From positions 1-50,385 of the IMG/VR virus record IMGVR_UViG_3300020416_000012: DNA of 50,385 nucleotides, one strand, 5' to 3'. The notes below the pieces were generated by a model. That model ran no database searches. It saw nothing but the letters and a program-made list of their open reading frames with translations, and was not told the origin of the DNA. A program made the translations under genes and the position numbers. Source of the DNA: a virus. Shown here piece after piece: positions 12,771 to 49,307 of the stretch. Every line of letters begins with the position of its first letter. Position 1 is the first letter of the stretch.

Positions 12771-15548
12771 TTATACCGTTGCTGAAGTTAGTGCAATTCC
12801 TACGTCTCCACCACCAAAGAAATCATCTTGCATTTGTGCTTGATTATTTGTGGCACCACCTGCTGCCCAACTGATGTATATAGGGTTACCATCTGCATTT
12901 ACATCTTTAGTTGCAATGATATCACTATTTGACTCATCAAAAATATCAACGGTGTTGTTGGAGTGATATCTAATTGAGAACTTAGTGCTACCTGGATTGG
13001 GGTCAGTCCACTTATCAGATGAATAGTTGGAGTTACTAGTGTTAAAAGACCAACCCTTTAGTGCGTCGATTTCTTCACTAGTGTTAGTCTGCCAACTCCA
13101 ATCCCAGAAAGTGTCTAAGTTTTCAACATTTGTCAGACCTGAACTGGCATTAGAGGATGACCACTGACCAATTTGAGAATTAATTTGAGTAGTGGGAAGT
13201 AACCAATGCATCTTATATCCTTGTGGAATACCATCCTTGTGTCTCCACACCTGATCTGCTGCATATGCAAGAACGTTTCCAGTGCTATGAATACCAGGTC
13301 CAACAGAAGTTTGATTTTCGGGGAATCCACCAATTCTCCAGTTCTTCCAAGGATTGTAATAATTTGGTGGTTCGTGAGCAATCTCCCATCCATATACTTC
13401 AACGCCTGTGGTTGATGTAGGAATTCTGGTTGAGTCACCTCCCATGGAGATAAAGACAGGATTACCATCCAAAGCAGAATTAGACACTGCCATAGTCTCC
13501 CTCACACCAGCCCTAACCACATCAAGTTTCAGTTTATTATCACCAGCATCGTACTTCAATCGGCAACTTTGTCCTGAAGTAGCAGTTGTTGAGATACCTG
13601 CCTGAACGGTGACTCCACCATCTTGTAAATCCTGGATCCTCAACTCACCAGTTCTCTTGAAACGGAATCCAACACTGAATCCATCAAAATCAGAATCTAG
13701 AACACCAATAATCATATTGTTTTTGGTAGAACCATTTTGATTGACGGCTAGTTGAGTCCAGATAAATTCTTGTCCAGGTCTCAATTTCTCACCCCAAGTA
13801 ACCTTGCCAGCACCATTGGTAATGTTCTTAAAATTATTAGAAACATCTAGAACCTCTGCTGCTGTCTTCAAAGGCATCGTATTTTGTCTTAAATTCAATA
13901 GAGTATTTTTATTGTTTCCAGAGTTCCAGTCACGGTACTCCACAAACCAGGCTGCTTCATTCCACTCCCAAACAAATTGGAAAATGTGTGATTGATAATT
14001 AGTAACCTCTGTTGCACCAAAGAGATATGGATACATATCAGCACCATCAAGAGCACTATCACCAGAGATAATTACCTCATCAGTGTCCTCATCGAATAGA
14101 TCCCAACTATTATCAGAATTGTATCTCCAAGAGATATTCCTACCAGTTAAATCTAATGTAAGAGTTGTTGATCCAGTATTTCTTGCAGTATAATTTTGAT
14201 TCAGAGTAGCATTTTCTTCATTCTTGAGGACGTTACTACTATTTGATCTCCAAGAACCAGTTGCGTCACTGTATGGATTCAGTGGTCCATCACCATTACC
14301 AGTTGTGCCACCATATCCAACACCCCAGTATTGAAGTTTAGTTTGATCTCCGATAGTTGCCTTCATCTTATGTCCAGGTCTCATTGACCTGGTGGACTTC
14401 CAAACATCATCATCCTCCACACCTTCATAAATTGAATGTCCTGGTCTTGGTGTAGTATTAAATGATTCAAGAGTCCACTCTTGACTTCTTATTTGAGATA
14501 CTGATGGAAGATTTCCTGGTGTTGATGCCTGTGTGCCTTCTTCAGATGAGAAGAAGATATGAGTTTCAGTTGCTCCTACTGCAACATTTGCTGAAGAGAG
14601 TAACCAATCATATGCTGTAGAAATCTCCCAGAGTTGTAATTTTTCTGACTCATAGTCAAATCTGATAGCATATGTTCCGTTCTCAACAACAATATCTTTA
14701 TTCAGTTCAACACCTGTTCCCGCAAATGTACCATTTTTTGCATCCCAATCATCATCTGAGTGATCATAATACCACTTGGTAGACCAGTTTGATTTGTTAT
14801 TTACATTCGTAATACCTGTTACACCAGTACCACCATTCCAAATACCAACATGAAGATCTTCAGCAGGAATTGCAAAGAGCATTTCCTCTCCTCTTCTCAA
14901 CTTTGTTCCATGGAAAACTACACCTCCATCCTTATCATGTTGATTATTGGAAAGTTGAGCACCATTATTAAGGAAGAAGTAGTTTGTAGATGTACCGATT
15001 GATGTAATGGTTCTTAGATTAGTTACATCGATATCAACATTAGTCGAATCTTCTAAGGTGAGTCTCAAAGTTGTATTACCAGTTCCAGTTACAACACCAC
15101 TAGAAACCGGATTACCACCACCAACAATATTAACTGTAGCAACACCACCACTAAGAGTAACAGCTGATACACCTGCACCAGTAAAGTTTACTGTATTACC
15201 ACTACCAACTGCAGATGAATTTCTTTGGAAATCGATATCATTAGCATTCTTGGTTGCCTGACCATTGATATAATCAATAACTTGTGCCAGACTAAAACCA
15301 AGATCATCTACAAGAAACTGTCCGGTTGCGTTCTTCACTCTCACAGGATCAATTCGTTTGAACAGTCTCCTTGGTGTTACTCCATCCTTATTAAACTGGT
15401 CACTTCTAGTAACCCTAATTTTTCCTGGACGATTGGGATTTTCAATTGCTACAACAACACCACCCAGAGGCGCAGGAGGAATTCTAACTCCCTCAAAGAA
15501 GAGAGCACCCTGAGATACATCTGCAAAAATAGTTACTGCTCTTGCCAT
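12771..15548 (-). CDS. Large virion or fibre protein with four repeated beta domains
   Basis: A 925-residue protein between gp16 and gp17. The N terminus (ADVSQGALFFEGVRIPPAPL, then GKIRVTRSDQFNKDG) looks like a conserved attachment domain up to about residue 105. From about residue 215 a domain of about 180-200 residues appears four times. Each opens with an L-R-x-G-x-x-M/F element (KLRRGEEMLF near 216, SMRPGHKMKA near 386, KLRPGQEFIW near 588, GIPQGYKMHW near 778). Each except the first has a strand-rich ALDG/NADG-x-P/M-x-x-Y/F-I-S block towards its end (SALDGADMYPYLFG, SALDGNPVFISMGG, NADGNPIYISWAAG). They are rich in Trp, Asn and Asp, like lectin or SPRY-type sandwiches that bind sugars. 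A role as a fibre or adhesin is inferred. It is one base from the 612-residue gene upstream. Confidence 0.85.
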   Translation of the reverse strand: MARAVTIFADVSQGALFFEGVRIPPAPLGGVVVAIENPNRPGKIRVTRSDQFNKDGVTPRRLFKRIDPVRVKNATGQFLVDDLGFSLAQVIDYINGQATKNANDIDFQRNSSAVGSGNTVNFTGAGVSAVTLSGGVATVNIVGGGNPVSSGVVTGTGNTTLRLTLEDSTNVDIDVTNLRTITSIGTSTNYFFLNNGAQLSNNQHDKDGGVVFHGTKLRRGEEMLFAIPAEDLHVGIWNGGTGVTGITNVNNKSNWSTKWYYDHSDDDWDAKNGTFAGTGVELNKDIVVENGTYAIRFDYESEKLQLWEISTAYDWLLSSANVAVGATETHIFFSSEEGTQASTPGNLPSVSQIRSQEWTLESFNTTPRPGHSIYEGVEDDDVWKSTRSMRPGHKMKATIGDQTKLQYWGVGYGGTTGNGDGPLNPYSDATGSWRSNSSNVLKNEENATLNQNYTARNTGSTTLTLDLTGRNISWRYNSDNSWDLFDEDTDEVIISGDSALDGADMYPYLFGATEVTNYQSHIFQFVWEWNEAAWFVEYRDWNSGNNKNTLLNLRQNTMPLKTAAEVLDVSNNFKNITNGAGKVTWGEKLRPGQEFIWTQLAVNQNGSTKNNMIIGVLDSDFDGFSVGFRFKRTGELRIQDLQDGGVTVQAGISTTATSGQSCRLKYDAGDNKLKLDVVRAGVRETMAVSNSALDGNPVFISMGGDSTRIPTSTTGVEVYGWEIAHEPPNYYNPWKNWRIGGFPENQTSVGPGIHSTGNVLAYAADQVWRHKDGIPQGYKMHWLLPTTQINSQIGQWSSSNASSGLTNVENLDTFWDWSWQTNTSEEIDALKGWSFNTSNSNYSSDKWTDPNPGSTKFSIRYHSNNTVDIFDESNSDIIATKDVNADGNPIYISWAAGGATNNQAQMQDDFFGGGDVGIALTSATV

Positions 15549-30984: not shown

Positions 30985-32544
30985 TTAGAATTGCAAGATA
31001 ACTTTTACGTCTTCTTTCTGTGAAGATGATCTAGTAACAGAAGGTCTGTTATCAACATAAATGATGTCACCAGAGTATTTTTGAGACTCTGGATTGGAAA
31101 CTCCACTCGTGAATTCCTGACCCAAGAAGTATGTACGACTATTTATTGTCGTAGATACGCCCGAGAATGATTGATCGATCAGAAGGGTATTTCCTGCAGT
31201 TGGATTAATTTGAACACTACCACCTGACGCTGGTGAGGCAGTAAATCTTATTTGCTCAAATCCAAAAACGGGATTTGTATTTGCTGTACCGTCTGTATTG
31301 AAACCAGCAGTTCTTCTATCTTGCCAATACTTCAAAACACCGGTTTGTTGATCGTATGAAACGACTTTACCTACAGCTGTTGAACCCAAACCGACAGTTT
31401 GAGTGAAAGTTGAGTCAGCAGTGAAGACAGCTTCACTAAATCCAGTACCAACAAGCTTCAAACCATAGACTGCGCTGGCCTTATCGGTGGTCAGATTGAT
31501 CGTGGAATTGAAATTTTTGGGATTTTTAACAATTCCGACCTGCGCAAACTGGTTTCCGGTGATAAAATCGGGATTTTGCGTGTCATTTTCAAATCTTGCG
31601 TAAGAAAGCACGTTATTTGCACCTAATTCGCGGTAAATATCGGCTCCATGACCTCCAGGAGGAGGAATAATGACGTTAAAAACGGGATCAACGGTGCCTG
31701 AAGGAACACCACCAGTCAATAAGTCCAAAGTTCCGAAGGAATATCCGTTTCCACCGTTAGAAACGGTCACAGATTCAATTTTTGAGTCATTGTTTACGAC
31801 AACAGTAGCCTCTGCACCCCTTCCATCGCCCAAAATAGGTACTCTGGTGTAGGTAACATTAGCAGTACCAATACCAACACCACGATTTCTAATGGTTACA
31901 ATCTTAATTTGACCACTTGTTCCTGCATTTTCTCTTACAGAAGTGTATGAAGAGTTAGTTTCCCAATCTGTGGGTACCGGAATGAAGTTGGTAGAGTCAA
32001 ATTTGATGATTTGATTTGGCTTAATCGTAAAAAGATACTTCCAAATATAACCATCACCACTGCTTCCAGCCTCTCTGGGCTCCAAATCGGTGAAATTTGG
32101 TTCGTCCAAAGAAGGACCACCTCTAAAACTGTTCTCTGGATTGGCGTTATTGAACAAACAAATATAAATTTTGAACTCACTATTCATTACATAGTAGTTT
32201 GCATCATAAATGTCCAACGCTCCAGAAGGTTGTGATGCATTATTTCTATCAATATCATTTCTCCACATATCATATGTGGTACCTGACTGCCAAGTAATCT
32301 TCTTCACAACCTGGCTTACATCACCAGAGTTGATCTTTTTAAGGGCCAACATGGTGTCCCAATAATAATTTGAATCATCCAAACAATCCTTGGGGGCAGG
32401 AGGATTGGAATTCCAGTCACTCTGGAACTCAGGAGCATCTGGAAGACCAATCCATGCGTAATATGAATTGTTAGAATTCTGTACAGAGTCTACAAAATTC
32501 TTTGCATTCAAGATACGAAGTTGATCAGTAATTATCGCAGCCAT
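30985..32544 (-). CDS. 8: Baseplate wedge protein, gp8 (enlarged)
   Basis: A 519-residue protein; T4 gp8 has 334. The first 200 residues carry the gp8 signature of marine T4-like phages: SYYAWIGLPDAPEFQSDWN near residue 28, then NYYWDTMLALKKINSGDVSQ, KKITWQSGTTYDMWR and FKIYICLFNNANPENSFRG, and SGDGYIWKYLFTIKPNQIIK. From about residue 215 a beta-repeat insert (TIRNRGVGIGTANVTYTRV, TVSNGGNGYSFGTLDLLTGG) accounts for part of the extra length. The C-terminal part (VVSYDQQTGVLKYWQDRRTA, then DIIYVDNRPSVTRSSSQKED) is typical of gp8. In T4 gp8 dimerises in each wedge and links gp7 and gp10. A TCTAAATA motif lies 19 nt upstream. Confidence 0.93.
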   Translation of the reverse strand: MAAIITDQLRILNAKNFVDSVQNSNNSYYAWIGLPDAPEFQSDWNSNPPAPKDCLDDSNYYWDTMLALKKINSGDVSQVVKKITWQSGTTYDMWRNDIDRNNASQPSGALDIYDANYYVMNSEFKIYICLFNNANPENSFRGGPSLDEPNFTDLEPREAGSSGDGYIWKYLFTIKPNQIIKFDSTNFIPVPTDWETNSSYTSVRENAGTSGQIKIVTIRNRGVGIGTANVTYTRVPILGDGRGAEATVVVNNDSKIESVTVSNGGNGYSFGTLDLLTGGVPSGTVDPVFNVIIPPPGGHGADIYRELGANNVLSYARFENDTQNPDFITGNQFAQVGIVKNPKNFNSTINLTTDKASAVYGLKLVGTGFSEAVFTADSTFTQTVGLGSTAVGKVVSYDQQTGVLKYWQDRRTAGFNTDGTANTNPVFGFEQIRFTASPASGGSVQINPTAGNTLLIDQSFSGVSTTINSRTYFLGQEFTSGVSNPESQKYSGDIIYVDNRPSVTRSSSQKEDVKVILQF

Positions 32545-32563: not shown

Positions 32564-32571
32564 TATTTAGA
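32564..32571 (-). promoter_or_regulatory. Late-promoter-like motif TCTAAATA before gp8
   Basis: TCTAAATA on the minus strand, whose TAA (32567-32569) is the stop of the 388-residue gene. 19 nt before the gp8 start. Confidence 0.62.
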
Positions 32572-33733
32572 CGGTAAATCGATCTGGATATACCACTACA
32601 GTTCCACCCATGCCGGCATGATTTGTGCATTGGTAGTATAGTGTATTTGGTGCATCAAACGGAACTTCAAATTTAATTACACCACTAGCGGCCGAATTAT
32701 TGGTCACACCAGTGCTATATGCCGAACCACCATTTGATGTTCTGATCTCGAATGGATGGGAACCACCCGAGTTATTAACAAACTGATAGGTTTGACCTCT
32801 TGCAAGATAAATTACTGGGTCAGATGTACCACTCAGATTTCCTGGACCAGTGAATGTGTAGTGACTAGAACCACTTGCACCTAGTGTCCATTGGGAAGAA
32901 ACAAGATTATTTCCAATAGCAGTGATAAGACCAACATTATATGTTTCAGTCCCTGTGCCAACAGTTCCATCTGATTCTTTATTGACTAATTCTTTCCAAC
33001 CAGCATGTGCGAAATACAATCTACCGGTGTTATGTGCATGAGCAACAGCACCGTGGTATGTGCTTGATGATGGGAATTCACTGTAATTATTATAGTAGAA
33101 TGGGATGACGTTATTGGTATCAGTACCAATCATTCTTCCTTGGAATGTAGATACACCAGCAACAACTAATGTATTTGTGCTTACATTGGCAGTTCCAACA
33201 CCACTAGCTGTTGATGCAATGGTGGTGATACCAGCAGTGGTTGTCACTGTGATGTTACTACCTGCTTGAATCAGAGTGGTGATACCCGTTACACCTGATG
33301 CATTAGCACCAGTGAGTGTTGTTACAACACCAGTAAGACCAGATCCATCAGCACCATTCAAATTTAATGCTGTTAAAACACCAGTTAGAGATGCACCGGA
33401 ACCATTAAAACTTGTTGCGGTGACAATACCACTTACATTGACTGTATTAGCACTTATATTTGCAGTATTAGCAATACCTGTATACGCAATAGTAGAAATT
33501 CCAGCATTTGTTGTTACTGAAATGTTACTACCTGCCTGAATCAGAGTGGTGATACCCGTTACACCTGATGCATCACCTGTATTGGTGACAACACCCACAG
33601 CCAGAGAAGATCCATCACCAAGGAGACTGTATATTTCAGTAAAATTGCTATTAACTTTTATACCACCGGCAAGGAGGGTATCACCAGTGCCATCATTTGG
33701 TGCAGAGCCAGTGTTAATGCCTTGGAATGCCAT
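32567..33733 (-). CDS. Fibre-type virion protein with gp9/gp10-like N terminus and C-terminal cupredoxin domain
   Basis: A 388-residue protein inserted between the gp7-position gene and gp8. Residues 1-43 (INTGSAPNDGTGDTLLAGGI, then KVNSNFTEIYSLLGDG) resemble the N-terminal G-D-x-L-x-x-G-G-x-K-I/V-N-x-N/D-F motif of T4 gp9 and gp10, which docks them to the baseplate. Residues 50-200 are repeats (NLTG-type, and a near-identical 29-residue unit at 55-83 and 145-173). Residues about 205-270 are a tail-needle-like segment. Residues about 300-388 form a cupredoxin: IYLARGQTYQFVNNSGGSHP with His326, then LYYQCTNHAGMGGTVVVY with Cys369, His372 and Met375. This is a full type-1 copper ligand set with the C-x2-H-x2-M spacing of amicyanin. 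Copper binding is inferred; the fold may serve only as a scaffold. An AATAAATA motif lies 24 nt upstream. Confidence 0.88.
   Translation of the reverse strand: MAFQGINTGSAPNDGTGDTLLAGGIKVNSNFTEIYSLLGDGSSLAVGVVTNTGDASGVTGITTLIQAGSNISVTTNAGISTIAYTGIANTANISANTVNVSGIVTATSFNGSGASLTGVLTALNLNGADGSGLTGVVTTLTGANASGVTGITTLIQAGSNITVTTTAGITTIASTASGVGTANVSTNTLVVAGVSTFQGRMIGTDTNNVIPFYYNNYSEFPSSSTYHGAVAHAHNTGRLYFAHAGWKELVNKESDGTVGTGTETYNVGLITAIGNNLVSSQWTLGASGSSHYTFTGPGNLSGTSDPVIYLARGQTYQFVNNSGGSHPFEIRTSNGGSAYSTGVTNNSAASGVIKFEVPFDAPNTLYYQCTNHAGMGGTVVVYPDRFTV
33252..33303. repeat. Direct repeat copy A in the fibre gene
   Basis: The 52 bases here match those at 33522-33573 with one difference (t to c in CCTGCTTGAA/CCTGCCTGAA). 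The copies are 270 bp apart, exactly 90 codons, so the repeat encodes the same peptide in frame. Confidence 0.9.
33522..33573. repeat. Direct repeat copy B in the fibre gene
   Basis: Second copy of the 52-bp unit at 33252-33303, with one mismatch. It encodes ASGVTGITTLIQAGSNI-type sequence. Confidence 0.9.
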
Positions 33734-33765: not shown

Positions 33766-36700
33766 TTAATTGGTGTAACCATTAAACTTAAGTGGTCTCA
33801 ATCTCTGAACAAGAACTGATGTTGATAGTCCTGAGTAAGGATTTGGTGTAAATTCGAGAGCAGTGGTAGAAGGTCTACTCTTAAATTCAATCTTACCCCA
33901 TGAGTAAGTACCCCAGAAGTAATCATTATTAATTGTACTAGTTGTACCAATACCAACAGCAGCAACTTCAACTCTCTTGATGGTGGTAGTTCCGATACCT
34001 ACAGAGCTCAAATCTTTTGTTACATTGTATGCCTTAGATACTTGGTATATACCGTCCATGGTTGTGGTGGATATGTTGTTTGAATTGTTAACAACAAAGA
34101 TGTCACCAATGATCAACTGACTCATAGTGATTGCAGCACCAGGACCCATGACCGATTCATCTCTGAGATCAGATGAATCTGGGATGTAGAGTTCTAAAGT
34201 ACCAAGTCCACCAGCAGATTGTGCATAACCAACAATCAGACCTTGATCACCCATGTAAGTAGAAACTCCAAGAGTTTCAGTTCTAACGGTTGGAACTTCA
34301 ATCAATACCCGAGGTGCCTGGGTATATCCAGTTCCAGGATTAGTGATTGTAATTGTAGTGACACCACTTCCAGTTACATTTGCAGTACCTGTTGCTCTGG
34401 TGCCATTAATATCATCAGGAAGTGAGAAGGACACTGTTGGAGTGAAGGTTGAATATCCAGATCCAACGTTTGTGATAGTAACCGAGGTGACTGTTGTACC
34501 AATACCTACAGATGCAATACCAAGAGCTGTTGTGAACTCTCTTTGGTCGATCAATTTAATACGATCTTGATAATCAAGAAGGTTAGTCTCATTTCTACCA
34601 CTAAAGAGTGGTCTAGAAGTATCTGTGTAAGCATAACCACTTGTTATACCAACGTAACTTGTGAGATATGCTGCTGGGAAAATAGATGGTTCCTGATCAA
34701 CTCTATCCTTAGTAATAAACTGACCATTGATAATAATATCTTCAGTCTGTTTGCACCAAGTGACTGGTCTGAGTAGTGATTGGTTGGTCGTAATACCAGG
34801 TCCATCGTAAGCAAATGTTCTTGCAGTATCTAGAGTAGTAATACCTGTTACAGTTCTTTGTTCTTGAGAGAATCTAATTCCTTGACCCGATCCGGGATTA
34901 TTTTTCAGCTGAACAGAGTCGCCAACTTTAATTGTCTCAGTAATATCGACTAAGACAACATCAACATCGGGTGTTCCCTTGTAGAATAAGATCTTAGATT
35001 TATCACCCTTCTTAGGTGCCTCAGTAAATTCAATGACTGCACCACCATTGAACTTGTAAGCCTGATTTGGAACCTGAAGAATATCATTAATTGTAACGAT
35101 CAAACACTGAGCAATATTAATATTTGATCCAGTAGCAACTTCAATGGAGAACTGTTTTCCACTAATCGTGAGATTAAAGTTCTTTTTGAATCCATCGAAA
35201 TCTTCATCTAGAACATCAAAGACATCAAGATCTCCGATAGTAAATCCACTAAAAGAGTCACGGTAGACATCTTGGATAGTGAGTTGGAATTCATCGTAAC
35301 CAGTGGTGGTTTGAATACCAGTTGTTCCTCCAATAGAGGGTCTGACAACCTCACCCTCTTTGTATCCAAATCCTCTACTAGAAAGATCAAAGGAAATAAT
35401 ACTTGATCCTTGACCCACAACAACATCAACTTTAGCACCAGTACCTGTTCCTACTACACCATCGGCATAGACAAGAGGTATTGACTGATATGGAAGTGGA
35501 GCATCAATAACAACACGGGGTGGATGTAAATCATCAAGGTTTGCACCGATGAAGCTAGTAGTGATTGCAACAATCTCGCCATTTTGAACAGTGGCTGTTC
35601 CGATATTAACAACAGTGGTAATACCCGTTGCTGAGACTGCATATCCAACATTGACAGTCTGAATACCGACTCTGTAACCCGAACCAGGATTATTAATCAC
35701 TGTGGAAATGATTGTTCCTGCAGAAGAAACATTTACACTTGCACCAGCCGAGACCAGTGGTTGATAACCAAATCCTGGAGTAGAAGCAGCAGATACGATA
35801 ATACCTCCTCTAGGTATAGTCGCCTTATTAGGATCGTCACCAGATGAAACACTATCACCAAGATATGTAATACTTGATACACCAGCTGTTTCTGATAGAT
35901 TAAAATCACCAACGTTAATCTGACCACCCTGTGGCTCTTGAAGAATGTTAGAGTTCAGAATGATTGCATTGTTGGTAGAGAATCCTGTAATATTAGCACC
36001 ATTCTGTTTCAACGTATAAACTTTCTTCTGACCATTGAATTCAGTTTGTATATTGTCAAAAGTAAGGTTTGTAGAATAAGTATCCACATCACTATCTTCA
36101 ATTCCACTTCTCATGAAGGTTCTTCCTTGGAAAGTAGAGAAGGTTGTAATACCTGTGAAGTCTCTATTGTCTGGACCATCAGTAGAGGTACCGATGGGAA
36201 TAGCACCGTATGGAGCTTGAACAAAGTTGATAGTATTATCAACAATATTATAGTTACCACCCATGAGTTCAACACTTGATCCGTTTGCATGAGTACCGAT
36301 ACCGGTTCCCATTTGAGCTCTCAATACTCTTACTCTGTTAGTAGCTCCAACTCCGATGTCTTGAATGAGCATCATTTCATCATTAATCTTAATAAGATTA
36401 TTAGCTCTCAATGAAGAGATACCACTAACAATGAAATCAACATCAAATATGACATCTTGAGTAAGTGTTGTGGATACATTCACCTCAGTTACAGGTTCCT
36501 GAATCATGTTGTCAATAGCAACCAATGCTCTTGCATTTTGATTAGTGGATGTAATTTGATGGAAGGTACCTACACCAACAGAGGTGATATCTAATGTTGT
36601 GGGTGGTGATGATAGAGCATCAAAAGCACTTGCTGCAAATGCAACATTAACATCATTCAACTTAACTGCAAATACCGTGGAAGGTAGTTTATCCGTTGAA

Positions 36701-39700
36701 ACACCGGAGATTGTGGTAGTGACAATTCCAATAGCGTTAGCAGTAGATGTCAAAGAATTTTCATAACTGTAAATTAGTTTCTCACCGGTAACAAAGAAGT
36801 GATCGGGGACTGAAATAGAGTTGTTTGAAACATTAACGATAGATGGACTATTGCCCTGGAAGCTTCTTGAGAATATTGGTTTTGTATTGTGAGTAAGAGT
36901 AAAGGCTCTCTTCTTATCATTTTCAGTACCAGTGTATCCACCAAACTTAGACCACAGGATATTGTTATTAAGAGTTGAGATTGAGTTGATACCAACGATA
37001 TTATCAAAGTTCTTCAGTCCAATACCAAATGCTCTTACTTCAACATTAATACTTGCGTTTGGAGTATAAACAAGGTTGGTAGTATTGCTGGTTTTAGTAA
37101 CACCAACTGTTCCAAGACCAACATTAGTTGTAACATCACCATACTTGACAATCATGAAATTGTCCGAATCAAGAACATTACACTCAAACATCTCATACTC
37201 ATTATTTGTTGTGTCATGAACAGTAACAACAAAGTATTCAGCTGCGAATGGATTGTCGTAAGTGGCAATCAAATTAGCAGTAGGTGATCCTGAAGATGCG
37301 ATAGACTTATAGTAGGATGATAGGTTGGTAACCTCCATACTGACGGTTCCAACACCAGACGTTCCTGCATTTGTCAATATGGCAGATACGTTTGCAGTAA
37401 CTGCTGTTCCTACTGTGGGAACAATACTGAAGACCAGATTAGATCCAGAGATTTCTGCCTTATATGTTCCAAATGCATCTTGACCGGTCATTCCGGGATT
37501 ATTAGTAACGTCACCATACTGCAGCATCTCTACGTTTGTACCATCATGGAGAAGACTGAACTCAGACATGAAGTAATTACTCTCATTGTCTTGGAGTTGA
37601 ACCAGAAGCTTCGCTGATCTTTCAGATGTTGGAATTGTAAGGAGTGTAGTTTCCGTGGTGACAGGTACAGATACCGAAGATGACGCAATAGATACCAAAT
37701 TACCAATTGCAGTAGATCCGATACCAGTTACGTTGTCAAGTCCGCTGAATTGGAAAGTTGATACATCATAATTGTTGAATACGGATAGGTTGGGTGTAAA
37801 TGTAAGTCCCCACTCACTAGTTCCAATGCTTGTGTGACCAAAGAATCCAAGAGGAGTGGCAGTATCAAGTGTGGAGTATTGACTTACATATCCGTCGTTC
37901 TTATCTTGAATGACGGAAACAATAGCGGATTGTTTTCTATTCCTAAGTTCCTTATCTTGTACCAGAGTAAAGATCTTATTGTATGTAAATGATTCATCGT
38001 AGGTAGTAACCACTGAGAAATTAGTGGATCTAGGATTACTATTGAAAGAAGAGCTGAAATCATCAATTCTCAGAACCCTATTTCCTCTTGATTCAAAATA
38101 ATCGAGAAGAATTGTATTTTCAAATACCACTTCATCGGAAATGACTTTATTTTTACCGATATCAATAGTTCTCTCAGAGGCAAAATCAAAGTCTGGGAAA
38201 CAATTGAGTTTTTCTTCACCAATAAGGTCAATAACAGTTGAAATTTCAGAATCTACCGCTGATACAATACCAACAGCAGAATTATCAATTAGAAGATCGG
38301 CAAATTTCTTAAATCCTGCTGTGTGATTAAGAGAACTTACTGGATCATTCCATGTATCAAAATCAACTCTAGATTTCAGTGAATATGAGAAGTTTTGATA
38401 ATATTCATTATTGGGAAGAACCTGAAGATTATCATTCATGAATCCTGAATTTGATTGCCATCCAGAATTAAATGTCGCACCAACACCCAGTTTGATTGTA
38501 GAGTTAAAATCAATTGTAGAAGTGATACGAGCCTGAGTACCAGTAGTCTCAGATCTTAATATTGATCCAACCTCAAAATCATCTTCAGATGTAACAAATA
38601 GGAACCCACTTACACTGTCAAATCTCTCAACAATTCCAACTCCACCTGGATTTGTAACTCTTTCGCCTGCAACAAAGTCTTTTGTTACAATTCTGGGGTC
38701 AAATATTGGGAAGAATGACTTCGGAGTGACTGAACCGGCAACTAGATTTGTAGTGGTTCCGGGAAATTCTCCAACAGCAAGATTGTTAGTAAGGTCATAC
38801 TCAATATATGAACCTGATCCACCCAAATTGCTGTCAAGACCCGTTACTTCAAATAACTGATAATTATAATCTTCAGAGTTGTAACCCTTACCTGCTGTTC
38901 CAAAACCAACAGCAATGTTTTCTACAAGAACTGATTCACCAACCTTGAATGGCCAGTCCTTTGCATCACTAAAGATGTTGGAGAAGAAAAGACGAACAAT
39001 TTTACTTGTCGAGTTGTAAGTAACAGAACTGATGCTAAATCCATTAGTATTGTTAATAGGAATAATCGAAGGTGATACGTTAAAGAGAGATGAAGTGTTT
39101 TGAACGATCTCCACACTACTGTCATTCAACTCATATCTAAGAAGAACATCAGTAATTTCCTGATCAGTAAATCCATCAAGAATAACGAGATCGGGTGCCT
39201 GACTATAATTTACACCACCAGAAGAAATTCCAATAGATTCAAAACTACCTAATGATTCAAGTTCTAATACAAGAGGTAAGTTTCCTGTAGCGTTAAGTGT
39301 TTTATCAGATGGGTAACCAAAACCAATATTATTAATTTTAGTTGAAATAATATTACCGATTGAAGTGCTATTTGGTTTTAGGAGAGCACCTGATCCTTTC
39401 GCGCTAGAAACAAAGGAGAATCCAGGTAATGACTTATAACCAATACCCTTATTGTCAGATGATACTCTACTGATTGGACCTACGGCCGTTGATGATGCAG
39501 TATCATATTGTATATTTGAATTAGTTGATCCATATGATACAATTGTATCATAATCAAATGGAATATTGTAATCAAAGGTACGTGATGATACACCAACTAC
39601 TTCATAAATTCCGTCAAATTTATTTGGAACCAAGTTAATGGTATTACCACTAGGAACCGTGGTGTCATCCAAGATCTCTTTTTTTACGGCAGGAAGAATA

Positions 39701-42700
39701 TCCAAATTGTCTGGTTCAAATCCATAAAAGAGAACTGAAGGTAAGTTATCACTAACAGCAAGTGTCAAAGATGCAGAGGTATCAACACCAATAACTCCAC
39801 TTCTCACAACTTCAAATATTCTGTTGGTTTTAGTGGTCCAGAACTGATTAATTTTTTGTTCGTCCGCATACAGATACATTTCAAAGGCAGCTGCTGGGAC
39901 ACCAGCATTTGTGAATGACAAAGAAGAATCAGATAAGTCAAACTTGATGTTTTGATTTTTTTGAATTTCTACTTGAGGATTGATACGTGACAATGTTGCA
40001 GTTTTTGCACTACCAACATTGACAAATGTTGGATTCTCACTTAAAAGTTCATTCGCATTACGTACCAGTTTAATTACATCATTTTTCAGATTGTATACAA
40101 AATACATATCAGATGATGTCAGGTTTTCGGATGGATCACCCGACGTGTAAATGACTTTATCACCAGTGTTATACTTGTTGGTAGGAACAGTAAATGTATT
40201 AGAATTTGTATTAATACCTGTTGCTTCTACAATATCGGGATCAAATACAATTCTCCTATTATAGTCGTCATACTTTACTTTAATCGTGGTGGTTGTAGTT
40301 GGATTAACGTCAACAGTAACTCTATCACCACGAAGCATTCCGTGAGTCTGTGCTGTAGATACGGTTACAATATTCTGTGATACTCTACCTTTCAACACAC
40401 CGAGAATATCAGTATTGAAGCTGTGATAACTTCCAATACCTGCACTGGTGAAGTACAACAATCCACCGGCATTTGAATCAATACCGACAAACACACCATT
40501 AGAATTTACACCAACTCTTTGTGTTGCAATTCCGATTACATCATCCGAAAGTGGTACTGCAAATACATTTCTAGTCGCAGTAAGATCATACTTGGGTGAA
40601 CCATCTACACCACTCCAAACTTGAATAGAAGACCCACCACTGTTGGTGAAATACTTCATTGGAGTGTTAAGTTCCAGTTTATGATTAGGGATATGTATCT
40701 GTTGTTGACCCAGATTCAACCTAGTCACTCCAACTCCGGGATTGGAGAATGTGACTGTAGTAATGCCTGAGAACATTACTACTTGAGCAGAACCAAGACC
40801 TACTGATTCATTAGGTTTGAAGTAGAACTGTCTATTAACTTTAAATGATCTATTTGTAGTGATACCAGTAGATGTAAATCTAATCTTTCTAGGATCATCT
40901 CTAACAACCACACCAGCTGCATGTGGGAAACCGAGAGTTCCATCAACTCCTCTCAAAACTCTTATTCTTCCAGATTCTTCATCAACATTTAGAACTTGAA
41001 GTTTTTCTTTTTCAATTCTAAGAATGTCGTTAGTTCTGATGACTTGCTCATCCAAAGAACCAGAAACGTAAATGTATGTCTGAATACCTGTGACAGATTG
41101 TGTCTGAATACCTACAGATACATACCATCTCTCACTTGATACTCCAACAGTATATGCTCCATCAAATCCCTTATAGTATTCGGAGAGATTATCAATAAAG
41201 ACAGTATCTCTAGGAAGGAAGTTATGAGGTGCAGATGTAAATCCAATAAAGTTATTTGGATTGTTTCCACTACCAAATTCTACGTTTTCAATAAAGGTGG
41301 TAGCAAGAGAAACATTATTAACGGTCTTACCTTTAACTTGAGAAACCTTATATCTGATGTTTCTTCCACCTGTACCTTCAGAGTTGAATATAACTCTATC
41401 ATTTACTTTGTAATCTGTTCCGGGATCAAGAATATCCAAAGAATCTACAGAACCTGAAGTAGTCGCAGTAATATCAAGAGATTGATTTCTAACATTGTCT
41501 GAATTATAAACATAATCGTAACCAGCATCTCCACCATTAGTATAGTAGAACTTGGTATTTCTAAACCAAGAATTACCTACAATATCATATTCCTTTTGAT
41601 TGGATGAGGATCTGAAATTAAATGGATTTGGAACTGAATGATATTCATTACCAATTACATAGGGGAATACTGGTCTCTTAAACTTATCGAAAGGACCAGA
41701 TGCATCAATATTATCTGAGATGGTGCAGAAATATGCATATATTCCATTAGGGAAATCTGGTGTTACACAGAACCTACCATTTGACTCATCAAGATCTCCA
41801 TCACCCGCAAAAATGAAATCATTTACAAAGAATCCATTGGGGAATGTTGAATATGATGGTCTATTAAGTCCAGTGATAGCTAGTTTATATCCACTAACCA
41901 TTCTCCGAATACTACCAGTACCATCGATATTACTAAAACCATATGGTCCATAAATCGGATTACCATCATATGCCCAACCTAAAATGGGTGAGTGGAAAAG
42001 ACTATCCGTTTCTTCATTATTACTATTCAAAGTAATATCAAAGAATCCATATCTAATATTATTATTTCCAAAACCACTCAAAGCATTTGTATTTTGTCTA
42101 AGTGGTCTCTGTGCATACAAAGAACTGAATTGGAGAGATTTATTATCGATATTATCAGCGATTGTACAATCATCACCAAGTAGATTGGCAAATTTCTTCT
42201 CGAAAAGATTTACATTCCAGGGTTTGATGTTTGCATTGATTCTTGCACCTAAACCTGCTGCCTTAACGTTGATTGTTACCTTACCTGATTCGTAACCAGC
42301 TCCACCCTTTCTCACAATGACGTTAGAAATTTTACCGTCTGATACTTGTGCAATAAGAACTGCAAAACTACCAGTATCACTTACAACCTCAAGTGTGGGA
42401 GGTGCATTGAAACCAGTTCCACCTTGATTTACGATAACTTCGGATATTTGACCATTATTAATAATTGGTGTCAGTACTGCATTGATACCAGAATTCAAAG
42501 TAATTTCAGGTTGTCTTTGGAAATCGATAATTTCGGAAGATCCATAACCAACACCACCAGAGGTTAAATCGACTGATTCAATACTACCTCTAAAAATAGG
42601 TTGTAATTCTGCCGCATACAGTAAAATATTACCAACAAATGGATCATCACTAATAAGCCAATTAGATTCTCCAGCGATAGCAACAAAGTATGGATCTGTA

Positions 42701-45700
42701 ATTTCAGCTTCGGTATCAGTCCATGCAAGTACATTAGCTGGAGTTGTAATGTCTTCTTCAATTGGAGATTCGATGATATAAAGTTCCTGGAAGTTCGCAA
42801 CAAAACTTTCATCAAAAGCTGCAGCTGGACCTAAGACCTGAATAGTGATAGGAGGATAGTTGAAAGATCCCTTACCTGCATTTCTGAAATCAATACAGAT
42901 ATTGTTATCTACAAAATATTCTCTAGGGACACCAACTCTTCCGACTTCTGCTAACTTAAAGGAATCCTCATTGACTTTAACAACATAATAATCTTTATTT
43001 TCTGAAAGACCTGAAATGGCAGGTGTTCCTTTTGTATATCTTACAATATCTTTGTGATTATAACCATGATTGACAATCTCCACACTGTCGGAAGACGTAT
43101 TGACACCCACTGAAGGAATAGTTCTCTGTTTGTTTTCATATCCTACTCCAGGATTCGTTATAACAACAGATGATACTACCTGTTTGAGATTTTCGGCAAC
43201 AAAAAACTGACTACCATTACCAAATCCAGTCAAACTGACCGTGTTGATACCCGCAAACGCATCAGTTCTTGAATTATGAAGTTGAATACCAGTTTGTGAG
43301 GTTACATTGACGTAATACTTACTTCCTGTTGTAAGACCCACAACAACTTTTGTACTTCTTGGTTCGTATAAAATACCCTCACCGTTTACAAATTTGTGAT
43401 CAGACTTGAAAATGATTTCATTGGTGGCAAGTTTTACTTCGTCGGGTGAATTACCGATAAATGAATTCTCATGCTTGATTGAGAGCATTCTTGGTTCTGC
43501 TGAAGCACCTGAACCATTACCACCTGAGATACTGATGGTGGGGGGATTGATATATCCCATACCAGTATCAATTACTTCAAATCTTACCAGATTACCAAGA
43601 ACATTAGTAATACCTGTTGCACCTGTTCCTACTTCATCCTTTATACTGAGAATAGGAGGATTGATAATGTCATAATCAGAACCACCTGCAGTTACAATCA
43701 GACTTTCAATGTTACCGTAGTAAACATTATTTGATGACTTATAATTTAGAAGTTCAACACCATTAATAAAGATACCTGTGTGACCGGATTCAGTCTTATA
43801 TGATTTATTTCTAACCAATGGTGTGGTAATTTGTCTATAAAGACCTTGTGGTTCGATATTCTTTTTGTAACTCTCAAGAAGAGTGATTGATGCGTTGGTT
43901 ACCGAGCCATTGAATGTAAGATAAGTACCTTTTGCCAGGTCGGCTTTACTTCTTGCGAGTTTGATATTACTTTCATCAACTCTTTCAATAAAATACGTTG
44001 CTGAGGAGATTCCTTGGAACCCATCACCATTTGATTCAAAATAAACCGTCTCACCGGTATACAGACCGTGATCAGGGAGATTAGTGGGATTAGTTGGTAG
44101 TGTCAGTACATCGGTGCTCAACAATGATGCGGAGAATGTGATCTTATTATCAATCGTATTTGTAGCTACTCCATCAAAATTTGGAATGGAGTTAGATGCA
44201 ACCAGAACATCACCATTAAATTTTGTGTAAGTATTCTGTGTATTGGCAACAAAGTTTGAGATATAAGGATATTTTGATGAGTCTCCCTTAAGTAATTCAT
44301 TTTCAATAAAGAACTCCCCACTCAAGGGAAGCTGTTGACTATATTGAATAGTTACATCACTTGCAGAAGATACAGTTTTTACCTCTCCTAGAATAGAAAC
44401 AGTACCATCAAAATTCTCATATCTAACAGAATATCCCTCCTTGAGCAAACTATCTACTAAGAACTTGTGCTGATAGGTAAAATTGTTTGCATCAACTACA
44501 ATAGTTTCTGCAATTTTGAATTTTGACTTTACGTTAGTGAACCAATTATTAGCCTTTTTACCCACAGATTCAAGACCCAGTGACTTAATCTGAATCGTGT
44601 CATCTTTTTTGAAGAAGTATGTTGATTGATCTTGTTTAAAATCCTTTAGTGTGGAGGTAAATCTGACTCTGATTTCTTCAGATGTAGAAATACCAACATA
44701 TGCGAATGAATATGAATCAAATTTTACATCAGCTTTCTTAGGAAGATTATCAAAAACAGTGGTATTAAAGAATTGATTAGCAGTTTTTCCACTATAAGCT
44801 ATACTTACTTCTTCATCATCAACATTATCAACAACAATATTACCAAATTCGGGGAAGTCAATGGTAGAGTCCACGTTTATAACAGTGGCACCTACACTTA
44901 CAGGTTCAAGAAGTCGTGTTAACGGATTTGGTTTAAACTCACCAAAGATAGATCCTGCTACGTCGGTGTCCCTAGAGAAACCACCATCAATACTGATTTG
45001 ATAAAATTGAAACTTATCATAGGGAATAACCTGCACATTGGTGACAGAACCACGTGCCCCGGTCTCTTTTTGGAAAATGGTAAGGTTTTTAAGTTGTAGT
45101 GGATCACCCTGAAGTGATTCAACAACAAAATCTTGAGTTACCCTGTAGTCTGCATTTGACGGTGTGAAAAGAAATTGTGAAGGTTTGATGATTTCTACAT
45201 CTTCACCATACAATGCTCTGAACAAAATTTCATATGACTGATCGGTACCCTTTGAGGAATAGAAACTATCAGAATTGAAAATGAAGTTTCTTGCATCAAG
45301 ACCTTTGAAGAAACTCCTGTCTTGGAAACCTGGAGTAAATTGTGTCTTTAGTTTTGTAAAAAATTGCTGAAGAAATAGAACGTTCAGGTTTTGAACTTTA
45401 GTTCCTGTAATATGTTCATCTACCTCAGTTTGTGAAAAAGTCAGTTCATCAGGAGAACCTGTGGTAACATAAGTTGTGATACCACTAAATCCTCTACTAC
45501 AGTTCTGGAATACGGTATCAGTCTTCGATTCGTAGAATATAATCTCATTGTCAATCTTGATTACACCATTCGTCTCAGAAAATCCTAGTGTGGATTTTAC
45601 AGTTACATCTCTCTCAACATAATCCAGATCCTCGTCAAGAGTTGTTTCAGTTACTAGATTACAAAGTTCCTCTACTTTTACATATTGATCAATATTATTG

Positions 45701-45843
45701 ATGATATCAACAGGACCACCTTGATGTTCTTGAGAAACGTAGTATTGCTCAAGAAAATTTGTTAGAAGAGGAAAATCCTCTCTAACATACCTAGGAATTT
45801 GACTGGATACAATTTCCTGAAACTTGACTCTATCTACTGCCAT
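33766..45843 (-). CDS. 7: Giant structural protein in the gp7 (baseplate wedge initiator) position
   Basis: A 4025-residue open frame between gp6 and the gp9/10-like protein; T4 gp7 has 1032 residues and the same place after gp6. The N terminus (FQEIVSSQIPRYVREDFPLL, then FLEQYYVSQEHQGGPVDIIN) is not recognisably T4 gp7, so the symbol is positional. The body is mostly beta strand. Many units of G-x-G-Y-x-x-P-P-x-I/V-x-I occur (for example GMGYINPPTISISGGNGSG, GGTGFNAPPTLEVVS, GTGYTQAPRVLIEVP). Three copies of the E-x-M/I...RG..GT...H..G module occur, near residues 90-125, 1605-1645 and 3145-3190. Residues about 1285-1405 match a YHYH-type domain (GWAYDGNPIYGPYGF, then DLDESNGRFCVTPDFPNGI with YAYF). 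It is probably a long, modular wedge or fibre-carrying protein. No signal peptide and no enzymatic motif beyond the YHYH-like domain. Confidence 0.75.
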   Translation of the reverse strand: MAVDRVKFQEIVSSQIPRYVREDFPLLTNFLEQYYVSQEHQGGPVDIINNIDQYVKVEELCNLVTETTLDEDLDYVERDVTVKSTLGFSETNGVIKIDNEIIFYESKTDTVFQNCSRGFSGITTYVTTGSPDELTFSQTEVDEHITGTKVQNLNVLFLQQFFTKLKTQFTPGFQDRSFFKGLDARNFIFNSDSFYSSKGTDQSYEILFRALYGEDVEIIKPSQFLFTPSNADYRVTQDFVVESLQGDPLQLKNLTIFQKETGARGSVTNVQVIPYDKFQFYQISIDGGFSRDTDVAGSIFGEFKPNPLTRLLEPVSVGATVINVDSTIDFPEFGNIVVDNVDDEEVSIAYSGKTANQFFNTTVFDNLPKKADVKFDSYSFAYVGISTSEEIRVRFTSTLKDFKQDQSTYFFKKDDTIQIKSLGLESVGKKANNWFTNVKSKFKIAETIVVDANNFTYQHKFLVDSLLKEGYSVRYENFDGTVSILGEVKTVSSASDVTIQYSQQLPLSGEFFIENELLKGDSSKYPYISNFVANTQNTYTKFNGDVLVASNSIPNFDGVATNTIDNKITFSASLLSTDVLTLPTNPTNLPDHGLYTGETVYFESNGDGFQGISSATYFIERVDESNIKLARSKADLAKGTYLTFNGSVTNASITLLESYKKNIEPQGLYRQITTPLVRNKSYKTESGHTGIFINGVELLNYKSSNNVYYGNIESLIVTAGGSDYDIINPPILSIKDEVGTGATGITNVLGNLVRFEVIDTGMGYINPPTISISGGNGSGASAEPRMLSIKHENSFIGNSPDEVKLATNEIIFKSDHKFVNGEGILYEPRSTKVVVGLTTGSKYYVNVTSQTGIQLHNSRTDAFAGINTVSLTGFGNGSQFFVAENLKQVVSSVVITNPGVGYENKQRTIPSVGVNTSSDSVEIVNHGYNHKDIVRYTKGTPAISGLSENKDYYVVKVNEDSFKLAEVGRVGVPREYFVDNNICIDFRNAGKGSFNYPPITIQVLGPAAAFDESFVANFQELYIIESPIEEDITTPANVLAWTDTEAEITDPYFVAIAGESNWLISDDPFVGNILLYAAELQPIFRGSIESVDLTSGGVGYGSSEIIDFQRQPEITLNSGINAVLTPIINNGQISEVIVNQGGTGFNAPPTLEVVSDTGSFAVLIAQVSDGKISNVIVRKGGAGYESGKVTINVKAAGLGARINANIKPWNVNLFEKKFANLLGDDCTIADNIDNKSLQFSSLYAQRPLRQNTNALSGFGNNNIRYGFFDITLNSNNEETDSLFHSPILGWAYDGNPIYGPYGFSNIDGTGSIRRMVSGYKLAITGLNRPSYSTFPNGFFVNDFIFAGDGDLDESNGRFCVTPDFPNGIYAYFCTISDNIDASGPFDKFKRPVFPYVIGNEYHSVPNPFNFRSSSNQKEYDIVGNSWFRNTKFYYTNGGDAGYDYVYNSDNVRNQSLDITATTSGSVDSLDILDPGTDYKVNDRVIFNSEGTGGRNIRYKVSQVKGKTVNNVSLATTFIENVEFGSGNNPNNFIGFTSAPHNFLPRDTVFIDNLSEYYKGFDGAYTVGVSSERWYVSVGIQTQSVTGIQTYIYVSGSLDEQVIRTNDILRIEKEKLQVLNVDEESGRIRVLRGVDGTLGFPHAAGVVVRDDPRKIRFTSTGITTNRSFKVNRQFYFKPNESVGLGSAQVVMFSGITTVTFSNPGVGVTRLNLGQQQIHIPNHKLELNTPMKYFTNSGGSSIQVWSGVDGSPKYDLTATRNVFAVPLSDDVIGIATQRVGVNSNGVFVGIDSNAGGLLYFTSAGIGSYHSFNTDILGVLKGRVSQNIVTVSTAQTHGMLRGDRVTVDVNPTTTTTIKVKYDDYNRRIVFDPDIVEATGINTNSNTFTVPTNKYNTGDKVIYTSGDPSENLTSSDMYFVYNLKNDVIKLVRNANELLSENPTFVNVGSAKTATLSRINPQVEIQKNQNIKFDLSDSSLSFTNAGVPAAAFEMYLYADEQKINQFWTTKTNRIFEVVRSGVIGVDTSASLTLAVSDNLPSVLFYGFEPDNLDILPAVKKEILDDTTVPSGNTINLVPNKFDGIYEVVGVSSRTFDYNIPFDYDTIVSYGSTNSNIQYDTASSTAVGPISRVSSDNKGIGYKSLPGFSFVSSAKGSGALLKPNSTSIGNIISTKINNIGFGYPSDKTLNATGNLPLVLELESLGSFESIGISSGGVNYSQAPDLVILDGFTDQEITDVLLRYELNDSSVEIVQNTSSLFNVSPSIIPINNTNGFSISSVTYNSTSKIVRLFFSNIFSDAKDWPFKVGESVLVENIAVGFGTAGKGYNSEDYNYQLFEVTGLDSNLGGSGSYIEYDLTNNLAVGEFPGTTTNLVAGSVTPKSFFPIFDPRIVTKDFVAGERVTNPGGVGIVERFDSVSGFLFVTSEDDFEVGSILRSETTGTQARITSTIDFNSTIKLGVGATFNSGWQSNSGFMNDNLQVLPNNEYYQNFSYSLKSRVDFDTWNDPVSSLNHTAGFKKFADLLIDNSAVGIVSAVDSEISTVIDLIGEEKLNCFPDFDFASERTIDIGKNKVISDEVVFENTILLDYFESRGNRVLRIDDFSSSFNSNPRSTNFSVVTTYDESFTYNKIFTLVQDKELRNRKQSAIVSVIQDKNDGYVSQYSTLDTATPLGFFGHTSIGTSEWGLTFTPNLSVFNNYDVSTFQFSGLDNVTGIGSTAIGNLVSIASSSVSVPVTTETTLLTIPTSERSAKLLVQLQDNESNYFMSEFSLLHDGTNVEMLQYGDVTNNPGMTGQDAFGTYKAEISGSNLVFSIVPTVGTAVTANVSAILTNAGTSGVGTVSMEVTNLSSYYKSIASSGSPTANLIATYDNPFAAEYFVVTVHDTTNNEYEMFECNVLDSDNFMIVKYGDVTTNVGLGTVGVTKTSNTTNLVYTPNASINVEVRAFGIGLKNFDNIVGINSISTLNNNILWSKFGGYTGTENDKKRAFTLTHNTKPIFSRSFQGNSPSIVNVSNNSISVPDHFFVTGEKLIYSYENSLTSTANAIGIVTTTISGVSTDKLPSTVFAVKLNDVNVAFAASAFDALSSPPTTLDITSVGVGTFHQITSTNQNARALVAIDNMIQEPVTEVNVSTTLTQDVIFDVDFIVSGISSLRANNLIKINDEMMLIQDIGVGATNRVRVLRAQMGTGIGTHANGSSVELMGGNYNIVDNTINFVQAPYGAIPIGTSTDGPDNRDFTGITTFSTFQGRTFMRSGIEDSDVDTYSTNLTFDNIQTEFNGQKKVYTLKQNGANITGFSTNNAIILNSNILQEPQGGQINVGDFNLSETAGVSSITYLGDSVSSGDDPNKATIPRGGIIVSAASTPGFGYQPLVSAGASVNVSSAGTIISTVINNPGSGYRVGIQTVNVGYAVSATGITTVVNIGTATVQNGEIVAITTSFIGANLDDLHPPRVVIDAPLPYQSIPLVYADGVVGTGTGAKVDVVVGQGSSIISFDLSSRGFGYKEGEVVRPSIGGTTGIQTTTGYDEFQLTIQDVYRDSFSGFTIGDLDVFDVLDEDFDGFKKNFNLTISGKQFSIEVATGSNINIAQCLIVTINDILQVPNQAYKFNGGAVIEFTEAPKKGDKSKILFYKGTPDVDVVLVDITETIKVGDSVQLKNNPGSGQGIRFSQEQRTVTGITTLDTARTFAYDGPGITTNQSLLRPVTWCKQTEDIIINGQFITKDRVDQEPSIFPAAYLTSYVGITSGYAYTDTSRPLFSGRNETNLLDYQDRIKLIDQREFTTALGIASVGIGTTVTSVTITNVGSGYSTFTPTVSFSLPDDINGTRATGTANVTGSGVTTITITNPGTGYTQAPRVLIEVPTVRTETLGVSTYMGDQGLIVGYAQSAGGLGTLELYIPDSSDLRDESVMGPGAAITMSQLIIGDIFVVNNSNNISTTTMDGIYQVSKAYNVTKDLSSVGIGTTTIKRVEVAAVGIGTTSTINNDYFWGTYSWGKIEFKSRPSTTALEFTPNPYSGLSTSVLVQRLRPLKFNGYTN

Positions 45844-48572: not shown

Positions 48573-48580
48573 TATTTATT
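48573..48580 (-). promoter_or_regulatory. Late-promoter-like motif AATAAATA before the 51-residue gene
   Basis: AATAAATA on the minus strand, whose TAA (48576-48578) is the stop of the 243-residue gene, 12 nt before the 51-residue gene start. Confidence 0.6.
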
Positions 48581-49307
48581 GCGGATCGGCGTATCTTCCC
48601 TCTTGTGAATGATAGGTATCGATACCTTCACTCATTGAGTTAAAGTAGTTAATATCTTCTCTCTCCTCTTCCTCAGTCCTATAAGCCCACTCATCAGTGT
48701 GTCCTACAGACCACCACTTCGGTTCTACCTCTACAGCATAGTTCTGTGTACAAACCTTGAAATCAGGTTGTTTGAGGTTATCATTATTAATCAGACTATT
48801 ATCCAGGAACACAGTCCTATTATTAGGTTGTGCCGCAAACTGTCCATTATCCAATGCAATCACATTGAAAGTCTTATGTTCAGGATCATGTTCAGAGAAG
48901 TTCACGTCCAGAATCGAACAATCAGGATGTGCAGTATCAATAGTGAATTCATACTCACCAGGATGCATCTTCTTATCCTTACCAAAGAATTGACATCTAC
49001 CAAGGATAGGTTTCTCTACAACTGTAATGTTATAGTCAAAACAATCCCACAGTTCTAATACATCCAAAGGTAGTTGATCATTCCAATCAATGTCCTGCTT
49101 CCACACAAATGCAGACAGTGGTAGTTTATCATAAAGGGCACCATACTCTGTCAGGAGTGTTTCAAAGTATAGTGCCTTTGCCTGAATACTCCTTACAGAG
49201 ATCCAGATACCAGGTGTTAGTTCTCCATGACCCTTCTCCAGGTCATAGAGATATTCTTTCTTGACCCAGACCTGTCTGGGGGGTAGTGGATGAACTAAGT
49301 ATGCCAT
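48576..49307 (-). CDS. Conserved protein of unknown function, 243 residues
   Basis: Starts at ATG 49305-49307, one base after the stop of the 48-residue gene (TAAT-ATG). Aromatic- and acid-rich, with text MAYLVHPLPPRQVWVKKEYL, then ITVVEKPILGRCQFFGKDKK, MHPGEYEFTIDTAHPDCSIL, then FNVIALDNGQFAAQPNNRTV and KWWSVGHTDEWAYRTEEEER. The region about 120-170 has a beta pattern with His and Asp that could bind metal or sugar. No membrane segment, no recognised domain. It sits in the same small cluster as the glycosyltransferase-like gene. I cannot assign a role. Confidence 0.85.
   Translation of the reverse strand: MAYLVHPLPPRQVWVKKEYLYDLEKGHGELTPGIWISVRSIQAKALYFETLLTEYGALYDKLPLSAFVWKQDIDWNDQLPLDVLELWDCFDYNITVVEKPILGRCQFFGKDKKMHPGEYEFTIDTAHPDCSILDVNFSEHDPEHKTFNVIALDNGQFAAQPNNRTVFLDNSLINNDNLKQPDFKVCTQNYAVEVEPKWWSVGHTDEWAYRTEEEEREDINYFNSMSEGIDTYHSQEGRYADPQ

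Follow-up and report, generated by a model that had tools for sequence, protein, structure and literature searches.

The DNA analysed here (the window, a viral fragment of 50,385 bases) encodes a major head protein, a portal, tail sheath and tube proteins, a terminase and baseplate wedge proteins; judged from its sequence, this gene set is that of a T4-like marine cyanophage. Its gp8 shares 88.8% identity with gp8 of Synechococcus phage RB11-B. Next to gp8 lies the gene considered here, whose 388-amino-acid product carries a predicted cupredoxin domain at its C terminus (Table 1). The best PHROG for this carrier protein is phrog_677, ‘baseplate wedge tail fiber protein connector’ (2.7e-56). 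Its N terminus matches the Pfam family T4_gp9_10_N (PF07880) at 25.4 bits, against a cut-off of 25 (E = 1.7e-5), and solved chains of T4 gp10 match it at 1.6e-8, with gp10 of PDB 5hx2 covering residues 4–92. The carrier belongs in PF07880 both by this N-terminal profile match and by its place in the tail operon adjoining gp8. Because the N terminus is like that of T4 gp9/gp10 and the gene adjoins gp8, we assign the carrier as a baseplate-wedge protein. It shares with T4 gp9 and gp10 the N-terminal region and the operon position; however, its C-terminal domain is a predicted cupredoxin, and T4 gp9/gp10 matched the N terminus only.

Table 1. Features of the cupredoxin-bearing gene and its two neighbours (positions in the window)
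Feature	Position	Strand	Basis or remark
Baseplate-wedge / tail-fibre-connector protein (phrog_677), 388 amino acids, cupredoxin carrier	32567..33733	(-)	ORF
T4 gp9/gp10-like N-terminal region, residues 4–127	33353..33724	(-)	PF07880, PDB 5hx2
His-rich segment, residues 211–246, HxH pair H232/H234 plus H227, H243	32996..33103	(-)	precedes cupredoxin
Predicted cupredoxin domain, residues 282–385 (~104 residues)	32579..32890	(-)	profile, PF00127, AF2
His326 codon, first putative metal ligand, in GGSHPFEI	32756..32758	(-)	
Cys369 codon	32627..32629	(-)	
His372 codon	32618..32620	(-)	
Met375 codon, axial-ligand position	32609..32611	(-)	
Upstream neighbour, 4025-amino-acid baseplate-wedge protein (phrog_2885), YHYH domain	33766..45843	(-)	
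Downstream neighbour, gp8 baseplate wedge subunit (phrog_438, PF09215)	30985..32544	(-)	

The YHYH domain of the upstream neighbour (PF14240, 4e-25) occupies its residues 1279–1377. In a baseplate protein of a separate sequence, L077 (ORF at 2006), residues 331–456 resemble a divergent cupredoxin (NHPLALS ... YFCRYHALMG) that apparently sits within a YHYH-type region. In the window itself, a 243-amino-acid protein (48576–49307, minus strand) matches phrog_3704 at 2.6e-105, annotated as ‘ferredoxin’ in the auxiliary-metabolic category, and a 925-amino-acid protein (12771–15548, minus strand) that adjoins the terminase large subunit has no PHROGs match at 1e-5. In the carrier itself, the His-rich segment ahead of the cupredoxin reads YHGAVAHAHNTGRLYFAHAGW. 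Three of its His positions are kept in 38 of 47 distinct copies and one in 41 of 47, and the segment may be a further metal site, of the HxH type.

It is virtually certain, from sequence and structure model together, that the C-terminal ~104 residues of the carrier form a cupredoxin domain. When isolated, the domain scores 23.3 bits against Copper-bind (PF00127; cut-off 21.2) and is also above the cut-off in the genome search, whereas the whole 388-residue protein falls slightly below it (20.8 bits). A profile made from the domain’s own relatives matches residues 282–385 at E = 1.7e-56; of 39 relatives, 10 reach E ≤ 0.01 with PF00127, and most score below the Pfam model. An AlphaFold2 model of the domain, built with 39 related sequences, is all-beta, a Greek-key sandwich of cupredoxin type (pLDDT 95.5, pTM 0.87). 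All 17 Foldseek matches to the PDB at E ≤ 0.001 belong to copper proteins, namely rusticyanins, plastocyanins, three-domain nitrite reductases and one further cupredoxin; amicyanin follows closely, and the Foldseek TM-scores are moderate (0.44–0.60). VIA-align superposes the model on the N-terminal cupredoxin domain of nitrite reductase 2dv6 with a Z of 10.7 and an r.m.s.d. of 4.4 over 94 residues. Searched against PDB sequences, the domain profile gives weak matches only, kinases among them.

The translation bears out the four residues named in a preliminary description made from the sequence, with Cys369, His372 and Met375 in YYQCTNHAGMGG at the amicyanin-type spacing C-x2-H-x2-M and Cys369 the sole cysteine of the carrier. 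The cupredoxin fold proposed there is likewise recovered by PF00127, the AlphaFold2 model and Foldseek, and the structure prediction that it called for put cupredoxins at the top of the matches. Its C-terminal location of the domain stands, but the domain begins earlier than it supposed, at about residue 282, and extends to about residue 385. In a profile alignment with plastocyanin 1b3i, all four ligands are in register, with His326 on the first His ligand; the putative type-1 copper ligand set, two His, one Cys and an axial Met, thus occupies the corresponding sites. The mononuclear type-1-like metal site predicted for the domain is therefore complete. A chance motif is ruled out by the family match, the structure model and conservation; the window's other in-frame C..H..M/Q matches fall in frames that are unrelated or riddled with stops.

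With the plastocyanin/azurin family (PF00127) the domain has in common the fold and the order and identity of the ligands. Unlike plastocyanin, a soluble carrier, it is embedded in tail proteins, and its ligand loop is shorter (C-x2-H-x2-M, compared with C-x2-H-x4-M). Amicyanin has the same C-x2-H-x2-M loop, but the methylamine dehydrogenase context of amicyanin is absent. The domain falls far beneath the equivalog cut-offs for both plastocyanin (TIGR02656, 19.1 versus 87.85 bits) and amicyanin (TIGR02657, 17.8 versus 110.2 bits) and therefore represents a separate subfamily. We also considered whether a petE gene had been read as part of a tail protein, and this was ruled out: petE, which encodes plastocyanin, is a separate gene of ~110–144 amino acids scoring 66–77 bits to PF00127, found at its own locus in 7 of the 16 phage records examined.

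The first 82 relatives all had the complete set of His, Cys, His and Met (HCHM), but one of the six search patterns that retrieved them contained three of the ligands. A second scan used the stretch between the ligands as the query, which removes ligand bias for its own matches, and it too brought in intact sites only; of the 119 distinct sequences then available, 118 were HCHM and the other was a partial match. Copies lacking the site came to light in a scan of 16 phage genomes, an example being a second copy in RB11-B, in which F, A and V replace H, C and H. Used as a query, this copy retrieved a whole clade of such sequences, and the third scan used the N-terminal half of the domain alone. 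The combined census, aligned to a profile in which the ligand positions had been masked, draws on mixed and partly ligand-blind retrievals. It holds 182 distinct HCHM sequences, 34 sequences in which His, Cys and His are all replaced and Met is kept, 2 cellular sequences with HCH but not Met, and 5 matches in which the domain is incompletely covered or aligned. The proportion of 182 to 34 means little, because the retrievals were non-random and some queries were picked for lacking ligands. The informative part is the absence of intermediates: partial loss of the His/Cys/His triad occurs nowhere in this census. The preliminary description had proposed a search for conservation of the ligands across homologues, and free loss of His, Cys or Met was not seen; loss of the triad is all-or-none.

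The C-x2-H-x2-M spacing recurs in 180 of the 182 ligand-bearing relatives, and the other two have C-x4-H-x2-M. One copy with the longer loop, CTTGGHGGM, is in S-SKS1 (NC_020851.1, 11049–11363). Median identity between sampled pairs of HCHM sequences is 52%. A tree was made from 106 rows that fall below 80% identity, the ligand columns again being masked. Explaining the two states on it takes two changes, and the starred branches force two; many other forks are unresolved. The triad was thus, by this reconstruction, lost in two independent clades. Both keep Met at the axial position. Of the 23 columns with 90% conservation or more in the HCHM set, 16 keep their residue in most members of the larger of these apo clades (0.91 or more), column N64 is split (0.50), and the six conserved columns that change are the three ligands plus Y11, G55 and T63. 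The HCHM and apo profiles align with 99.9% probability in hhalign; retention of the fold in the apo clade rests on this homology because its AlphaFold2 model is poor (pLDDT 50). RB11-B (PV261925.1; 203664–203927, minus strand) has a metal-site copy by gp8 and a copy without His/Cys/His in another tail protein.

Because the ligand set is kept whole across divergent sequences and was lost whole twice, it behaves as one functional unit. Unused ligands would be expected to decay singly, and for this set of ligands the unit that is kept or lost whole would therefore be a metal site. This pattern makes it very likely that the site is kept by selection, and since relatives keep or lose it whole, the cyanophages that carry the domain probably use it.

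A tblastn search with the domain against 50,697 phage records (E ≤ 1e-3) matched 357, of which 349 (~98%) are named for Synechococcus, Prochlorococcus or cyanophages; the remainder are five marine viruses, two Pelagibacter phages and one uncultured record. The neighbouring gp8, searched for comparison, matched 519 records, 458 with cyanophage names, and neither set of counts is independent because many records are near-copies. Carriers of the domain include myoviruses and the podoviruses P-GSP1 and P-SCSP2. Among 16 records examined, 14 have a match at E ≤ 0.01, and S-CAM7 and HTVC008M have none at that threshold. The position of the domain varies: C-terminal in gp9/gp10-like proteins, near the N terminus in podovirus and proximal-tail-fibre proteins, and internal in others. 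Copy number reaches four in one genome, that of P-SSM2. In S-SZBM1, protein SSZBM1_206 ends in the domain (residues 400–500, HCHM complete), and this protein was detected by mass spectrometry in purified S-SZBM1 virions (9 peptides, 24.9% coverage; PMC9146016). The domain is thus, on present sequences, a mobile and mostly phage-borne module that has been placed variously in the adsorption apparatus of marine cyanophages.

These observations redraw the setting sketched in the preliminary description, which envisaged an unusual domain at the tip of a fibre in a phage of a plastocyanin-using host. A phage tail protein it is; the tip of a fibre is not borne out by the gp9/gp10-like N terminus, by the place of the gene between that of the 4025-residue baseplate-wedge protein and gp8, or by relatives, whose domain can be N-terminal, internal or C-terminal. 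A module present in 357 phage records is common in marine cyanophages rather than unusual. The proposed host fits ~98% of these records but not the two Pelagibacter phages, nor a Methylophilales phage with a divergent copy; the link to phages of photosynthetic bacteria is strong but not exclusive.

Cellular relatives are rare in the genomes searched. Two are clear, both HCHM: an exported acidobacterium protein of 160 amino acids with a signal-like N terminus and a membrane tail, and an exported, lipoprotein-like protein of Paraliomyxa. Several other genome matches, which come with tail-fibre-like sequence, look like phage contigs in metagenome-assembled genomes. Origin from a host protein was considered and rejected: 6 of 201 genomes of the Prochlorococcus family have any match, all weak, and matches occur in 3 of 199 genomes of the Acidobacteria phylum. 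One of the weak matches in the Prochlorococcus family is in a single-cell genome (L170, 1–3168). There, a large protein with repeated surface-type sequence, perhaps a cell-surface protein, contains a cupredoxin domain of divergent sequence (NHPLAFY ... YYQCTNHGLMG).

What might the site do? From the ligand set, the metal in the virion is likely to be copper, with zinc possible. Virion assembly takes place in the cytosol, which offers little free copper and in which zinc is the more available metal, and zinc can fill type-1 sites; a structural Zn(II) held by Cys, His, His and Met and loaded in the host cytosol would fit these facts. We nevertheless consider it fairly unlikely, given that both the loop and the set of ligands match copper proteins and that the axial-position Met is invariant even in the apo clades, where another role is required for it. 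The cupredoxin sandwich could instead be an Ig-like decoration that needs no metal, its ligands inherited and unused. Such sandwiches are frequent in phage structural proteins, and two clades did lose His, Cys and His yet retained the domain; for these minority clades, the alternative raised in the preliminary description, a fold kept for adhesion, holds. It fits the ligand-keeping majority poorly: unused ligands should have decayed singly, whereas 182 distinct sequences retain the full set and partial triads are absent from the census, and a lone conserved Cys is otherwise hard to account for. As an account of the domain, we find this reading unlikely.

A redox-active blue copper domain would let the virion trade electrons at adsorption with a surface or periplasmic partner of the host, or with superoxide. 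The ligand set is a complete type-1 set, the most familiar proteins of this fold carry electrons, ligand conservation is strict, and the bias toward phages of photosynthetic hosts is strong. However, no electron partner or route is known, the loop residues near His372 are variable, the domain is displayed outside the host during adsorption, phages that need plastocyanin carry petE as a gene of its own, and the domain is also in Pelagibacter phages, all of which makes electron transfer quite unlikely. Alternatively, a receptor with which the host takes up metal might recognize the loaded domain, a copper counterpart to the ‘Ferrojan horse’ hypothesis, in which fibres carry iron. That hypothesis has been reported together with HxH motifs in cyanophages (PMC11705849), and carriers of the module are mostly phages of a single host group; with no receptor known and with copies in several different tail proteins within one genome, such mimicry is very unlikely. 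That marine cyanophage virions bear genuine type-1 copper centres on their adsorption apparatus and use the copper in infection, by redox chemistry or by metal-dependent docking to a receptor, is on the whole doubtful.

Apo-cupredoxins fold without copper, and a purely structural need for the metal is consequently weak; apoplastocyanin 2pcy is among the Foldseek matches of the domain model. We lean slightly towards a role as a metal-stiffened, Ig-like adhesion module, in which the metal is structural or tunes contact and no electrons are passed. A small module of this kind on baseplate and fibre proteins would help binding to the host surface; its metal would be loaded inside the cell or acquired from seawater after lysis, and would act structurally or tune the contact surface. 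Three things favour this role in adhesion or display: the domain moves among dissimilar tail proteins and positions, tail proteins continue to carry relatives that lack the site, and there is a precedent for metal in phage fibres, the iron held at HxH in the T4 gp37 fibre, as cited in PMC11705849. In gp37 and the Ferrojan horse, too, metal-binding residues belong to a tailed phage's adsorption apparatus (PMC11705849); gp37 differs in fold and ligand set, having inter-chain HxH pairs, whereas each cupredoxin domain has one putative Cys/His/His/Met site. Against the metal-stiffened module we count the apo clades, tail proteins that have the domain without the metal site, together with the low Pfam scores of most relatives and the shortage of free copper where virions assemble. 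Taken as a whole, a mobile cupredoxin module with a selected type-1-like metal site and a metal-stiffened adhesion role is the somewhat probable explanation.

The fold and the type of site were already known; the location, the subfamily and the all-or-none evolution are new here, and the open-licence literature searched yielded no account of a phage-tail cupredoxin. Cyanophages are among the most studied and most abundant marine viruses, and the module is located in their adsorption machinery. If the site in the virion holds copper, phage tails would contain a copper-protein module without a description in that literature, and there would be a testable link between trace-metal chemistry and the infection of Prochlorococcus and Synechococcus, for which relatives that have the domain and have lost the whole site offer a natural control. 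If, further, the copper is used in infection, these virions would be copper proteins and infection would be tied to the availability of copper in the ocean.
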